Shown piece by piece: positions 8,514-62,086 of a stretch of DNA of 64,000 bases. Made by a program: the position numbers and the translations under genes. The notes beneath the pieces are model-generated. The model made no database searches and was not told where the DNA came from. It saw only the letters and a list, made by a program, of their open reading frames with translations. This DNA is from Oscillatoria sp. SIO1A7 (GTDB lineage Bacteria; Cyanobacteriota; Cyanobacteriia; Cyanobacteriales; Laspinemataceae), in NCBI GenBank assembly GCA_010672965.1, contig JAAHFN010000001.1, forward strand, positions 268,118 through 332,117, written 5' to 3'. Positions within the stretch are counted from its first letter, which is position 1, and every line of letters starts with the position of its first letter.

Positions 8514-8927
8514 CTTGTATTCCCGCCAGCGGGCAATCAAACCGGAGTTAAACTCAATAAAAATAGCATTGTCAGCGCAACGATCGCGACCTGTCGCTAA
8601 ACTGCGATCGCACCAACGCCATTCCACGGCAGCTTGCTCTCCCTCCACCACTATGCGACGTATCTCGATCTTCACCTCCGCCAAAACTGCCAGATAATTG
8701 ACAGTCGCCTTTTGGATGGCCGCTTTGCCAGCAAGGCGATTCTCCCGCATAGTGCCAGAAGCGCTATTCTCCTGCTTCTCCTGCTTCTCCTGCAAAGGGC
8801 GCGTTTCGCCGGATAAAATAATTTCTCCTGTCTCCGCAAAAAGCCCTGCAAAACTTTCTGCATCTCGGGCAGAACAGGCATCCGCCGCTCGTCGGATTAT
8901 TGCTCTAATCTCTTCTGGGTTCATCAA
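8508..8927 (-). CDS. SnoaL/NTF2-like protein
   Basis: A 139-residue protein with the pattern of the NTF2/SnoaL fold: an N-terminal helix pair (EEIRAIIRRAADACSARDAE, then FAGLFAETGEI), then strands with WRWCDRS and a tail ending IARWREYKG. Members are small cone-shaped domains that act as isomerases, hydrolases or binding proteins; the substrate cannot be told. Residues about 46-52 (LQEKQEKQEN) come from a 9-bp tandem repeat (CTTCTCCTG on the plus strand), an in-frame expansion in a surface loop. The stop codon lies in a GGGTGTT array. Confidence 0.7.
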   Translation of the reverse strand: MMNPEEIRAIIRRAADACSARDAESFAGLFAETGEIILSGETRPLQEKQEKQENSASGTMRENRLAGKAAIQKATVNYLAVLAEVKIEIRRIVVEGEQAAVEWRWCDRSLATGRDRCADNAIFIEFNSGLIARWREYKG

Positions 8928-10592
<1,665 letters not shown>

Positions 10593-10648
10593 CTAGCTCT
10601 TTCCTTAACCCAAGTCGCGCCATTAAACACCATTATAGCGCTACGCAC

Positions 10649-10735
10649 AAGTCAAAAGTCAAAGGTAGTATCTGACTACTTTTGACTTTTGACTTTTAAC
10701 TTTTGACTTTTAACTTTTGACTTTTAACTGGCGAT
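10649..10735. terminator. AGTCAAAA inverted repeat after eno
   Basis: The stretch AGTCAAAAGTCAAAGGTAGT (about 10650-10669) is followed after 5 nt by its near-perfect complement ACTACTTTTGACTTTTGACT, then further ACTTTTA octamers to 10727. The transcript can form a long hairpin about 60 nt beyond the eno stop. The octamer is the one that forms the big array at 31217-31468. The preceding TATAGCGCTACGC also occurs at the end of an element at 61318. Confidence 0.6.
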
Positions 10736-11011
10736 CGCACCGCCCGCGCTCTTTGCTCTCGGCTGCCCTGGAAAACCGTCAGTTGTACCAGGCTCGCGAA
10801 GAAATAGAAAAATTTAAATTCTTTTTAAGCCTTATGTGGCAAGGGTTTGAGGCGTATTTTTCCGGCTTGCACCCGTTTGAAGTGCGGCTCAAACTCGCCA
10901 AAACAATCACAAATCGCTGCTGGCGATCGTCTTAATCGTAGAAGAACGAAAAACAATACCTCAAAGCCGGGGTTTTCTACTTGGGCTTTAGGTCACATTA
11001 GGTCACACGCT

Positions 11012-57089: not shown

Positions 57090-60000
57090 TTATTCCATCT
57101 CAATCAGCTTTTGCCAATCGCTAATAGCCGAGGTTGGCCACATCCAATTTTGGCCTAAAGTATTCGGTTCAAAATAAACGGCATTGGTAGCCATAACCCA
57201 TTTACGATTCTTAATCGCTTTACTGAGCAGCATCCTTTGCTCTGCGGCGGGCTTATCTTCTGCAGACTGTTTTAAAACCAGCGCCAGTCCGGCATAGGCG
57301 GCGAGAGAATCGGGACTATCCTGAAATTCTGTAGCTTCCAGCAAAGCTACCACCTCCAACCACATATGCTTGGCACGAGCCAGATTCCCTTCCGCATAAT
57401 AGGCAAAACCCAGAGCATTATGATAGAGAGGGGATTTTGGTTGGGCTTTATTCACTGCAGCTTCCCAGAAGCGCCTCGCATCATCGACGCTATAATCCTT
57501 ATTGCCGGTACGAGCGAACTGCCAAGCCAAGCGACCGTAGAGAAAATTAATATCGGGGCGATCGCGTCTATTATTAGGTATTGTTTGCAAAGCGCCCCGA
57601 GCTTGAGGCAGAGCCCCGCGATCTAGCAGAGCCGTTACCGCCATAAACCCAGCGCTATGCCTTTCGCCAGCAAAATTTTGAATTGCGATCGCCGTTAGTT
57701 CCCCAGTGGCTATTTTCCGCAACTCTTCGAGATATTTGCTCTGGACTTGCCGATATATCTTTTGAAAAGACAATTCAGACTTTTGCTCCTGGGACGCTCT
57801 ATCCAAAACAGTTAGAGCAGATCCCAAGTCATTGCGATAGAGCAATAGCTTAACCGCTTGGACTCCAGCCTTGTGTCGTCCTTGAGAAAACTGTTCCGTT
57901 GCAAAAGCCGCCACTTTTTTATTAGGTTGAGTTCCCAAATCCTTCGGGAAGCCCGGGATAGATTTAAACTCTTCCATTGTAAACTCCGTTGCCGTTTTCA
58001 GAGGTTCCGAAGTCAAATATCCCTTATTTCTCGACCCCTGCCAGTTCCATAGCCCCATACCTAAAATAGCGATCGCCATAATACCCACCGCGCCGCTCAA
58101 CCAAACTTTTAAACTCTGCGGTTGTAAGCTCTGAGAACCCCGAGTATTTCTCTCCTTCAGAAGCCGCTTGGCATCTAATTGCTCTGACTTTGCCTGCGAT
58201 GCTATTGCCGTCGGACGCTCTCCTGCTGTCACTCGGCCATTGCCCTTATCTTGCGAGGGCTTCCTATATTGGGCTGGGCTTTTCGGCATTGCCGCCGCGC
58301 CCATAGGGGTTTGGCTCGCTCCTGCATCTCCCTTTGGTAGCGTTCTAAAAATATCGCCAACTAGCGCTGCTGCATCATCTTCCTCCCAGTCTTGCTCCTG
58401 TTGCTCCTGTTGTCGGGGGGAGCGATCGCTCAAGGGCAGAGTTCTAAAAATATCGCTAACAAGAGCTGCTGCATCATCTTCCTCCCAGTCTTGCTCCTGT
58501 TGCTCCTGTTGTCGGGGGGAGCGATCGCTCAAGGGCAGAGTTCTAAAAATATCGCTAACAAGAGCTGCTGCATCATCATCATCTAGATCTAAATCGTTGT
58601 AGGCGGTATTTTCATATCTGCGATCGTCGTAGGCTGGATTTTCGTAGGCTTGATTCTCGTATTCCTCGTCGTCGAGCCAATCCAAATCCTCGTCTAATTC
58701 TTCTTCAGTTGGGGCAACCATCGCTCCCATTCTGGAAAAGTTATGAGGTAGCCTTGGAGCATCGCCTTCCATTTGCTCGTATTGGCCGTAAGCTTTTTCG
58801 TAGGGAGGATTGGCAGAATTGATTTTCGTTCTGCGGGCAATTGGAGTAGCAGTTTGAGAAATCTGCCCTTGAGGAGCTATTAAATAACCATCAAATTCCT
58901 GATGCAGATAGAGAACCGGCAAAGCCCAGTAAAGTTGATTAGAACTGTAACTAGAAATCAACCCCTGTCTGGCTCGATTCAGACTCATATCTACGGGGTA
59001 ACCCTGTTTGAGGTTGTAATAAAAAAGCCTGGTTAGAGTCAGGGCTACCTCATCGGGAATCCGTTCTGCCATTGCCAAAACTCCGGGAACGCCGCGCTTG
59101 ACCAGAACTTCTGCGAGGTTGCGCCGACTTAAAGCATCGGTTAGGTCTGATGTAGCGGTGTAGGCTCCTTTGCAGGAGTTGAATACAGCCAAGCGAATGC
59201 CATTGTTGACTAACAATCCAGCCAGGTCGTCTCCAGTTAATACCTCGCTTAAGCCAGTTTTTTGATTTACCAAATACAGCTCCCCTCCAGAAGCGCCCAA
59301 ATCGCTGTGACCGGCATAGTGGAGGACCTGGTAGTGGTTTTGTTCTAGGGCTTGGGTTAGGGTTTCTCTATCCGGGCGATCCAGGATTTCCAGCTCTATT
59401 TCTGGAGAGCTTTCTGTTGCTGAATTGACAGGCGATCGCCTTTCCAGTTCTTCGCTCAGTCGTTGCGCTTCCTCTCTGAGAGCCAGGTGTTCTCTATCCG
59501 CCGGTGCCGCCAATACCATCAATATTTTTAGCGGACCATTGGGCTGGGATGGCAGGGACACTGGCGCTAAAGTCGGCTGATAGCGGGAAAAGACTACATC
59601 AAAACCCGTAGCAATCGGGCGAGTTTCTTCGTGGAGTACCTCCCAGGGAAGGCGGGGCAAAAGCGCATCTTTGAGCCCCAAGCGCAGTCGCAATACACTA
59701 TCTTGGTTATGAGCGATCGCTTGGGCTCGGTTGAGGCGATCGCCTACGCTACCTTGAAACAGCGCATTGTATAGCTGCTGGCCTAAAGCAACTAGGGTTC
59801 TTGCTCTCTCGGGATTTTCGTTACCGGGTAAAAAACCTTGCTCCCCTGCTTGGGCGGAATTTTCCCAATCTGGATTTTCCCAATTTTCTTCATATAAATA
59901 GGAGTCATCCAAATAGAAATCCTCCCTGGCCAGATTTTCGCCATTTCCCCGCAGCAAACCAAGCAGAGGATCGTCCATTAGCTGACGGGCTTGGCGCAAC

Positions 60001-60134
60001 CAATCTTCCACGGGCCAGCTCACCTGCTCCTCCGCAGGCAACACGCCTTTTGGTGCCTGTTCGGTTCGCACCAGATATTCATTATCCCCTATGGGAGTTA
60101 CAGAAATGTGCAATTCCTCAAATTTCTGGGTCAC
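57090..60134 (-). CDS. Membrane-anchored CHAT protease with acidic repeats
   Basis: 1014 residues from GTG 60134. A leader with NEYLVRTEQAPKGVLP precedes a CHAT domain at about 100-410; catalytic His is in VLHYAGHSDLG and Cys in AVFNSCKGAY. A very acidic linker (480-600) holds two and a half 33-residue repeats (DDAAALVSDIFRTLP) encoded by 99-bp DNA repeats. One transmembrane helix lies near 680 (WLSGAVGIMAIAILGMGLW), and the C-terminal TPR-like region should be outside the cytoplasm. A protease facing the cytoplasm with an external TPR sensor is a plausible reading. No partner gene is adjacent. Confidence 0.87.
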   Translation of the reverse strand: MTQKFEELHISVTPIGDNEYLVRTEQAPKGVLPAEEQVSWPVEDWLRQARQLMDDPLLGLLRGNGENLAREDFYLDDSYLYEENWENPDWENSAQAGEQGFLPGNENPERARTLVALGQQLYNALFQGSVGDRLNRAQAIAHNQDSVLRLRLGLKDALLPRLPWEVLHEETRPIATGFDVVFSRYQPTLAPVSLPSQPNGPLKILMVLAAPADREHLALREEAQRLSEELERRSPVNSATESSPEIELEILDRPDRETLTQALEQNHYQVLHYAGHSDLGASGGELYLVNQKTGLSEVLTGDDLAGLLVNNGIRLAVFNSCKGAYTATSDLTDALSRRNLAEVLVKRGVPGVLAMAERIPDEVALTLTRLFYYNLKQGYPVDMSLNRARQGLISSYSSNQLYWALPVLYLHQEFDGYLIAPQGQISQTATPIARRTKINSANPPYEKAYGQYEQMEGDAPRLPHNFSRMGAMVAPTEEELDEDLDWLDDEEYENQAYENPAYDDRRYENTAYNDLDLDDDDAAALVSDIFRTLPLSDRSPRQQEQQEQDWEEDDAAALVSDIFRTLPLSDRSPRQQEQQEQDWEEDDAAALVGDIFRTLPKGDAGASQTPMGAAAMPKSPAQYRKPSQDKGNGRVTAGERPTAIASQAKSEQLDAKRLLKERNTRGSQSLQPQSLKVWLSGAVGIMAIAILGMGLWNWQGSRNKGYLTSEPLKTATEFTMEEFKSIPGFPKDLGTQPNKKVAAFATEQFSQGRHKAGVQAVKLLLYRNDLGSALTVLDRASQEQKSELSFQKIYRQVQSKYLEELRKIATGELTAIAIQNFAGERHSAGFMAVTALLDRGALPQARGALQTIPNNRRDRPDINFLYGRLAWQFARTGNKDYSVDDARRFWEAAVNKAQPKSPLYHNALGFAYYAEGNLARAKHMWLEVVALLEATEFQDSPDSLAAYAGLALVLKQSAEDKPAAEQRMLLSKAIKNRKWVMATNAVYFEPNTLGQNWMWPTSAISDWQKLIEME
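58325..58570. repeat. 99-bp in-frame repeats in the CHAT gene
   Basis: Two nearly identical 99-bp units plus a partial third, differing by a few bases near the first copy. They encode the VSDIFRTLPLSDRSPRQQEQ motif with the following QDWEEDD; the QQEQQEQ part is itself a TTGCTCCTG-type 9-bp repeat. Confidence 0.85.
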
Positions 60135-60720
60135 AGCTTAATCGCACTCCTGCTCGGTGTCTGGGTCCTCTATATGCACCACCTCTGGCTATATATGGCG
60201 CTAAATGCCCAATGCATTCCAGCTACGGCTCTGTCCGCAAGCTTTGGAGATCGCCACAATAAATTTTTATTTTTTGAAAGCGACTGGAAATTTTGATAAC
60301 GCCAACTAAGCGATCGGACGAAGGCAGTACCTAAAAAGTTACCTACCGCGAATTATTCTTATGGTCCGCGAAATTAGGGTGTAGGGGGTGGGGTGTAGGG
60401 TGTGGGGGGTGGGGTGTAGGGGGTGGGGTGTAGGGAGTGGGGAGTGGGGTGTGGGTTTAGGCAAAGAGAGTGTGGGAAGAGTGGGAAGAGTGGGAAGCGT
60501 GGGAAGAACTACGCAAAATTTTCTCTTTCCTCTCCCCACTCTCTCCCCACTCCCCAAACCCCACTCCCCACACCCTACACCCCACCTCTCCCGAGCGCCC
60601 TCCTGAGAGATCTCTTCTCTTACACCCCTACACCACCCCTACACCCTACACCCTACACCCTACACCCTACACCCTACACCCTACTAGCCCAATGCCAATT
60701 TTTAATTCCGTCCGGAGCGG
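60135..60720. repeat. Spacer with inverted G-rich/C-rich arrays
   Basis: After a short gene-free stretch, AAATTAGGGTGTAGGGGGTG units run 60371-60458, GTGGGAAGA units 60470-60505, then CACTCCCC and CACCCTA units 60535-60685. The two halves can pair. No gene. Confidence 0.85.
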
Positions 60721-60744: not shown

Positions 60745-60801
60745 TGGTAGATGCACCCCGATTGAACCTCTCCCGGCTTTAAGCAGTCGGGATTTTTTTT
60801 T
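60745..60801 (+). ncRNA. Small RNA-like unit 1 of tandem family
   Basis: Conserved head TGGTAGATGCACCCCGATTG, then a hairpin TCCCG..CGGGA and nine T. It shares this layout with 61087 and 61237. No reading frame. Likely a short transcript of about 55 nt. Confidence 0.6.
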
Positions 60802-60899
60802 GGAAGATAGGCCAAAATATTACCTCTAATACTGAATTAGGTGGAAAGCAAGAAAAAATCAACAGGTCTGGTAATGCGATCGCCCCGCCCGGAACAAAA

Positions 60900-60955
60900 A
60901 AAATAGAAAAATTTCCCGATGACCTTGCAGTCAGATAGTATAAGGGAATGCTTGA
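60900..60955 (+). promoter_or_regulatory. Orphan promoter-like segment of the small-RNA family
   Basis: CCCGATGACC, then GCAGTCAGATAGTATAAGGG and AATG match the DNA just upstream of unit 3 (CCTGATGGGCGTACTCAGAC, AAAGAATAAGGGAATG), including a TATAAG -10-like hexamer. The TGGTAGATGCACC head does not follow, so this looks like a decayed fourth unit. Confidence 0.4.
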
Positions 60956-61086
60956 GTCTCTACATTAGAATGGTTCTGAATTTATGGAGTCGGTATTTTT
61001 ATTTTTTTAAAATTTCGCTCTTTTTAAGACAATCTATACAATTGCAAAAAATCCCGATGCGATCGCCGATACAATGAAAAATTAAA

Positions 61087-61147
61087 TGGTAGATGCACCT
61101 CGATCTAAAACTTCCCGGCTATTGCAACTGGGAAGTTTTTTATTTGG
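61087..61147 (+). ncRNA. Small RNA-like unit 2
   Basis: TGGTAGATGCACCTCGATC head and an ACTTCCC/GGGAAGT hairpin followed by TTTTTTATTT. The stem bases differ from units 1 and 3 but stay paired. A GATACAAT -10-like box is 17 nt upstream. Confidence 0.65.
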
Positions 61148-61236
61148 TTGCTAAGGCTTTGAGAACTTGAAAAATAAATAAGGCAATCGCTTTTCACTTT
61201 TTCCTGATGGGCGTACTCAGACAAAGAATAAGGGAA

Positions 61237-61293
61237 TGGTAGATGCACCCCGATTGACGCCTCCCGGCTTTCACAAGCCGGGAATTTTTTTGT
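61237..61293 (+). ncRNA. Small RNA-like unit 3
   Basis: TGGTAGATGCACCCCGATTG head, perfect CCCGGCTT/AAGCCGGG terminator stem (61263-61282) and TTTTTTT. AGAATAAGGG upstream is promoter-like and resembles the orphan segment at 60900. Confidence 0.65.
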
Positions 61294-61861: not shown

Positions 61862-62086
61862 TTAACCGATCGCCTCAAAGCTTAACACTTCTAAAACTGG
61901 CCCAATCATAGCCATTGTCATCACGTCATCCCGAACCCGACCTTCTACTTTAACCATCATTCCCGCTTGTAACAGCGGCTGAGGTGGTTCGTAGAGTTCG
62001 TAGGACATACCTTCTTCGCTCTCTAGAGCCCAGGTTCCGGTGCCGATATCGACATATTTAATCGTGCCAGTTACCGCAATACTCAT
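61862..62086 (-). CDS. Small OB-fold-like protein coupled to subtilase
   Basis: 74 residues, predicted all beta (TGTIKYVDIGTGTWALES, LLQAGMMVKVEGRVRDD, GPVLEVLSFEAIG), resembling a minimal OB-fold. No signal peptide, so cytosolic. Its ATG overlaps the subtilase stop as ATGA, so the two proteins are made together. Function unknown; an inhibitor or chaperone of the protease is possible but unproven. Confidence 0.7.
   Translation of the reverse strand: MSIAVTGTIKYVDIGTGTWALESEEGMSYELYEPPQPLLQAGMMVKVEGRVRDDVMTMAMIGPVLEVLSFEAIG

Follow-up and report, generated by a model that had tools for sequence, protein, structure and literature searches.

The DNA analysed here (the window, 64,000 nt of Oscillatoria sp. 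SIO1A7) carries three tandem small-RNA units beside a divergent hetF homologue and, judged by their sequence, these units are almost certainly nsiR1 genes. NsiR1 is known from nitrogen-fixing heterocyst cells, is HetR-dependent and is specific to differentiating cells. The main interest of the locus is that the head of this RNA goes with HetR, not with nitrogen fixation, across the sampled genomes, and that it has a sister class of small RNAs preceded by a putative HetR box.

Three tandem units, their promoters and hetF

Three units with a common head had been placed at 60745, 61087 and 61237 in the original prediction. The sequence TGGTAGATGCACC was found exactly at these positions, always on the + strand, with no further exact copy in the window. 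When up to two mismatches were allowed, the window gave 4 matches (shuffle mean 0.84), a number reached by 1 of 100 shuffles. Each unit is 56 nt long, and the start-to-start spacing is 342 nt, then 150 nt. A different but intact terminator stem with a T-run had been predicted for each unit, and such a stem was indeed present 3' of every head. A simple terminator scan detected units 1 and 3 and missed unit 2, because the loop of unit 2 is 9 nt and the limit of the scan is 8 nt.

The units were scored with the Rfam covariance model RF02399 (NsiR1; gathering score 39 bits), as follows: 48.7 bits and E 1.5e-6 for unit 1 (60745-60800, + strand; head TGGTAGATGCACCCCGAT, 8-pair stem, T-run; fold z -1.30), 39.8 bits and E 2.4e-4 for unit 2 (61087-61142, + strand; head TGGTAGATGCACCTCGAT, 11-pair stem, T-run; fold z -3.48), and 48.7 bits and E 1.6e-6 for unit 3 (61237-61292, + strand; head TGGTAGATGCACCCCGAT, 9-pair stem, T-run; fold z -2.65). 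The gathering score was exceeded by all three units (by unit 2 barely), and the small RNA that had been left without a named match is therefore identified as NsiR1.

DIF1 is described as the motif TCCGGA at -35 (PMC6133370). Unit 1 has an exact match to this consensus at -34 (60711-60716, + strand), and units 2 and 3 have DIF1-like motifs with one mismatch at -35 (TCCCGA, 61052-61057, and TCCTGA, 61202-61207, both + strand). A scan for ordinary sigma-70 promoters between 60100 and 61900 gave none. Among 186 non-redundant NsiR1 copies, a set limited to rows with at least 70 bases of upstream DNA, TCCNGA was present upstream in 163 (shuffled upstream DNA: mean 1.9, maximum 7); the stretch tested was -42 to -26, and all matches in fact fell at -36 to -32. 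In three genomes (loci L103, L111 and L124) a copy of NsiR1 whose TCCGGA lies at -35 begins about 14 nt past a long same-strand ORF, so that its promoter falls inside the ORF end.

Promoter-like DNA had also been predicted in an orphan piece at 60900-60955, in agreement with what was found there: the piece reads TTTCCCGATG...ATAAGGGAATG and, relative to the aligned T (60949), has TCCCGA (60914-60919) at -35. The NsiR1 head is absent from the orphan, and its next 63 nt fold like shuffles (z -0.16). Being headless and no better folded than shuffles, it was rejected as a fourth small RNA and kept as a promoter remnant (60914-61011, + strand), i.e. a promoter of the DIF1 type whose RNA was lost or never existed. 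It is probably a decayed NsiR1 copy.

The hetF homologue (57090-60134, - strand) encodes a protein of 1014 aa with a CHAT domain (PF12770), is divergent from the array and starts 611 bp from unit 1. The sole NCBIfam match of this protein is HetF, a cell division protein (NF045509, 825 bits, E 7e-248), below the equivalog cut-off of 1200 bits. That cut-off was passed by only 22 of the 388 class genomes, all in family f6 (f1, f6 and so on being the family labels of the genome sample), which nifH, HetF scores and array size suggest to be the heterocyst-forming family. Together with the three RF02399 matches and the DIF1-like motifs at -34 or -35, the divergent hetF bears out the earlier suggestion of tandem small RNAs of the NsiR1 type.

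Low-complexity purine/pyrimidine repeats (60376-60686, unstranded; GGGTGTAGG.../CCCTACA) separate hetF from unit 1; these heptamers form inverted arms and extend the hetF leader region. Sub-threshold Rfam matches (miRNA and others) on the CCCTACA/GGGTGTAG repeats were discarded as low-complexity artefacts. Beyond the array lies a 74-aa ORF (61862-62086) with no Pfam or NCBIfam match; two other loci (L055 and L068) seem, by eye, to have this gene near their NsiR1 copies.

Across genomes, the nearest listed NsiR1 copy was divergent from hetF and within 3 kb of it in 29 of 50 (20 in f6 and 9 outside, host included); this count covers listed places only, "not near" meaning that no listed copy is near, and leaves out 11 genomes with no hetF place. 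The divergent layout is also seen in Pantanalinema sp. GBBB05, with one NsiR1 copy at 724 (- strand) and a hetF match from 1115 (+ strand) of locus L012.

Head conservation and further copies in the host

In copies from the NsiR1-model loci, the exact core GATGCACCCTGAT was present in 156 of 190 (set allowing up to two mismatches, in which a few chance rows remain). Head position 15 is C in the three window units alone (3/190) and T in the other 187; with this C, pairing of the window units may differ or be relaxed. The head had been described as conserved and single-stranded: the conservation stands, but in the predicted folds of the window units a weak hairpin of 5-6 bp covers part of the head. 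Such predicted pairing would speak, only mildly, against a free seed.

The host genome (9.08 Mb, 182 contigs, rated 100% complete) gave 18 matches to the NsiR1 model at E <= 0.001, and an exact 12-mer search added one on contig C95. The host total is thus 19 head-bearing copies: 3 in the window and 16 outside it, with nearly the same head, on four other contigs (11 on C24, 2 on C13, 2 on C136 and 1 on C95). The copies on C24 form an array (8569-10779 of locus L009) at intervals of mostly about 146 bp; their upstream motif is TCCCGA or TCCGGA, their heads are of the GATGCACCCTGATGG type, and all score below the Rfam gathering score. Some spacers of this array hold inverted repeats that resemble small mobile elements by eye. 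The C13 copies have TCCAGA and TCCGGA as promoter motifs. The C136 copies have no TCCNGA and carry GGGTCAAACCC and GGGTGAAACCC at -35, which are exact matches to the HetR box; the C95 copy, between gatB and argJ, has an imperfect HetR box. The contrary case envisaged in the original prediction, units absent from all relatives, does not apply: NsiR1 matches were present in all 11 same-family genomes listed (8 to 12 each, dispersed).

HetR is present in the host as one HetR_C match, in an ORF of 337 aa. No NifH match of the host was over the cut-off; the best (E 6e-65) is like those of many genomes without nifH, and intact NifH genes among the matches listed gave E 2e-134 or stronger. With no nifH over the cut-off, the host is probably not heterocystous, although it has HetR.

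Targets of the head were sought in several ways. Duplexes between the window heads and the hetF leader were no better than shuffles, no conserved complement of the head was found in hetF leaders, and exact 12-mer complements of the head outside the small RNAs of 13 genomes included no conserved site. The 24 stretches examined for extra sites (L101-L124) contained further small RNAs, or scattered sites unshared between genomes. The hetF leader of the host was considered as a trans target for its GGTGCAT (7 nt) at -46 and was rejected, as 10-16% of shuffles match and the site is unconserved. The proposal that the head is a regulatory seed is plausible in view of the strong conservation, but the search for a conserved perfect complement in targets or hetF leaders gave none.

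The HetR-box class and distribution with HetR

A second class of small RNAs was recognised by GGGN5CCC about 35 nt upstream of the shared head core and by a terminator of its own. HetR is reported to bind GAGGGGTCTAACCCCTC in the hetP promoter, where GGGnnnnnCCC is required (PMC4192349), and the putative HetR box of one locus (L119) reads GAGGGGTCTCACCCCTCATT. The search pattern (GGGN5CCC, 25-34 bases, then the core GATGCACCCTGA) gave 210 matches in 172 of 388 genomes and 0 with the reversed control; at least one of the 210 sites (in G369) was counted twice, and three matches that stand in tandem in G095 resemble, by eye, the ordinary TGGTA type.

In loci L132-L161, which are the first obtained and not a random draw, 33 sites each have a stem and Ts after the head, with a short T-run in some f6 copies. 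The usual stem is GGGAGAGT...ACTCTCC (34 aligned examples); all seven predicted stem pairs show some two-sided change, each pair being broken or gapped in 0 to 4 of these sequences. The core GATGCACCCTGA is identical throughout this alignment (A2) by construction, since the search pattern demanded it. Within the flanks covered, gatB and/or argJ adjoined 21 of the 30 loci (both in 10) and neither adjoined the other 9; Pfam searches of nine flanking proteins assigned 4 to GatB and 5 to ArgJ.

The two promoter types are separate: among 243 copies of the fetched loci, in which a few chance rows are also left, TCCNGA was found in 169, a HetR box in 48, neither in 26 and both in 0, so that the HetR-box class lacks the DIF1 promoter. 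When RF02399 was applied to 11 sources of this class, only L123 exceeded 39 bits; L010 (34.2 and 31.7 bits) and L122 (33.8 bits) scored lower, and the other 8 gave no match at E <= 0.05. Just beyond the HetR-box copy of L123 lies a HEARO RNA (854-1090; RF02033, 98 bits). No earlier report of the class was found in the literature covered, which did not include the founding NsiR1 papers; the class is apparently undescribed so far, and its novelty is provisional.

The distribution was assessed across a class-wide sample of 388 genomes, with HetR scored by HetR_C (PF18460). Matches over the cut-off were obtained for NsiR1 in 201, HetR_C in 195 and NifH in 110. NsiR1 and HetR occurred together in 193 genomes, NsiR1 only in 8, HetR only in 2 and neither in 185; for NsiR1 and nifH the corresponding numbers were 76, 125, 34 and 153 (shared ancestry ignored in both comparisons). 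Within the order of the window (62 genomes), 35 had both NsiR1 and HetR, 0 had NsiR1 only and 2 had HetR only. The 201 NsiR1 genomes exclude eleven with matches below the cut-off, two of them HetR-positive (G164 and G238). At E <= 0.001, a match under the cut-off was also found in E. coli, one of 14 control genomes.

If partial or interrupted nifH is counted as present, the NsiR1 genomes without nifH number 117 of 201. In nine f6 genomes (G087, G097, G129, G178, G212, G225, G245, G336 and G357) the nifH matches end near model position 140-148, and 8 of these 9 short matches hold one internal TAA, as if the copies were interrupted. Among the eight NsiR1-only genomes, seven are HetR-negative by protein search, and the eighth has a HetR fragment close to the end of a contig; G006 and G021, which belong to the seven, are rated 99% complete, so exceptions to the pairing of NsiR1 with HetR seem to exist.

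The HetR-box class gave a similar picture: 167 of its 172 genomes have HetR and 108 have no nifH over the cut-off, and the remaining five (G006, G093, G309, G368 and G386) belong to the eight NsiR1-only genomes. It was found in 10 of the 23 f6 genomes. Both HetR-only genomes (G164 and G238) carry it, so that no HetR-positive genome is without a head-bearing RNA; one or both classes were present in 195/195 HetR-positive genomes vs 8/193 HetR-negative ones. That the head tracks HetR rather than nitrogen fixation suggests that the system may predate heterocysts.

Proposed role, alternatives and known systems

We consider it likely that the locus as a whole is an nsiR1 array delivering a HetR-driven seed RNA, which would repress mRNAs by pairing; for the part of this proposal that concerns seed-based trans repression under HetR control, our analysis leans towards it with more reserve. 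We infer expression of the array, targets and HetR control in the host as follows. Each unit would be a trans-acting small RNA of about 56 nt, beside hetF, with a DIF1-type promoter and an intrinsic terminator of its own. The array would be turned on when nitrogen limitation or some other cue makes HetR rise in part of the filament's cells, with HetR acting directly at the HetR-box copies and indirectly or via a partner at the DIF1 copies, and the multiple copies would produce a burst of RNA. The conserved 5' head would then pair with a few mRNAs, in their translation start regions, and block translation. A precedent is the hetP homologue alr3234 of Nostoc, described as repressed at its start codon by one NsiR1 version; use of the conserved head is an assumption here, the Nostoc pairing having been mapped for that version (PMC9045159). 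In a filament without nitrogenase, the RNA would be part of an older cell-fate programme based on HetR and PatX, e.g. necridia or filament breakage, and not heterocysts; HetR and PatX are said to predate heterocysts (PMC7761841). The uneven spacing of the array and the one promoter with no RNA after it count against the proposal, as do the C at head position 15, the negative target searches and the seven HetR-negative genomes with NsiR1. A further point against it comes from Anabaena, where a hetF reporter is reported to change little when nsiR1.1 is disabled (PMC8406250).

Alternatively, the array could act in cis only, with unit 1 transcribed antisense to the hetF 5' untranslated region and the head no more than a transcription start region. 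NsiR1.1 of Nostoc is indeed reported to be antisense to the hetF leader and to lower HetF translation (PMC9045159). Among the f6 loci whose hetF start could be read, 7 of 11 have an antisense head 187-197 nt before that start; among the remaining 22 loci such a head was present in the stretch in L028 alone, at 220. In the host, however, the 611 bp from unit 1 to the hetF start cross a repeat-rich stretch and most copies are on other contigs, and the HetR-box class, with the same head core, is mostly beside gatB or argJ. We therefore regard an exclusively antisense role as improbable.

Still less probable is that the array is a relic, inherited from an ancestor that formed heterocysts and now in decay, the host having given up nitrogen fixation. 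The lack of a nifH over the cut-off in a genome rated 100% complete, the promoter without its RNA and the head substitution confined to the window units would fit such decay, but all three units retain their promoter motif, their terminator and most of their head, one array of the host holds 11 more copies preceded by TCCNGA promoters, and NsiR1 is present in 125 genomes without nifH over the cut-off, for which a recent loss would hardly account in general. It is very improbable that the units are ordinary terminators or attenuators belonging to a protein operon, or copies of a mobile repeat: an intrinsic terminator does end each unit and copies are dispersed in the genome, but every unit is preceded by a promoter motif of its own at an almost constant distance, the units match a curated small-RNA family, and the + strand ORFs of at least 60 aa that reach them look by eye like chance frames.

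Extended to filamentous cyanobacteria, the seed-RNA proposal would make a small-RNA family with a shared seed a core output of HetR, older than heterocysts, in which two classes deliver the same head core GATGCACCCTGA and heterocyst formers later enlarged the hetF array; we favour this extension by a modest degree. The NsiR1 class would be the one with DIF1 promoters, often at hetF, and the second class the one with a HetR box, usually a GGGAGAGT-type terminator and often a place between gatB and argJ. If both classes follow HetR and not nitrogen fixation, they would be ready-made reporters, and perhaps effectors, of the older programme, which bears on what HetR does in filaments without heterocysts. 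The common head of NsiR1 and its HetR-box sister would, if this is true, point to one shared set of targets, and "heterocyst-specific" would describe the site of expression in Nostoc and not the original purpose of NsiR1.

The closest known system is NsiR1 of Nostoc (Anabaena) sp. PCC 7120, described as a small RNA of about 60 nt in tandem copies divergent from hetF, with DIF1 promoters, a head plus terminator and slightly divergent siblings (PMC9045159, PMC8406250, PMC6133370). By its sequence, the window array shares all these features. Twelve nsiR1 copies are reported upstream of hetF in PCC 7120, in the opposite direction (PMC9045159, PMC8406250); the host has only three at hetF, 611 bp away and with C at head position 15. 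It also differs in having no nifH over the cut-off and in its 16 extra head-core copies on four other contigs, three of which are of the HetR-box type (two with an exact box, one with an imperfect one). NsiR8 and NsiR9 are likewise described as HetR-dependent, yet they are 171 and 122 nt long (PMC4734099).

The HetR-box small RNAs resemble hetP promoters in carrying GGGN5CCC, here about 35 nt before the head; the hetP site drives a protein gene (PMC4192349), whereas the putative box precedes a short RNA that bears the head core of NsiR1. An NsiR1-like RNA in a non-heterocystous filament is already published: RNA162 of Limnospira indica PCC 8005, a filament with hetR and neither nitrogen fixation nor heterocysts, differs from the present case in being reported as a single RNA of 57 nt (PMC8400943). 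On the evidence of its sequence, the window array is a genuine NsiR1 locus; its kind is known, but the host is unexpected and some features are unusual.
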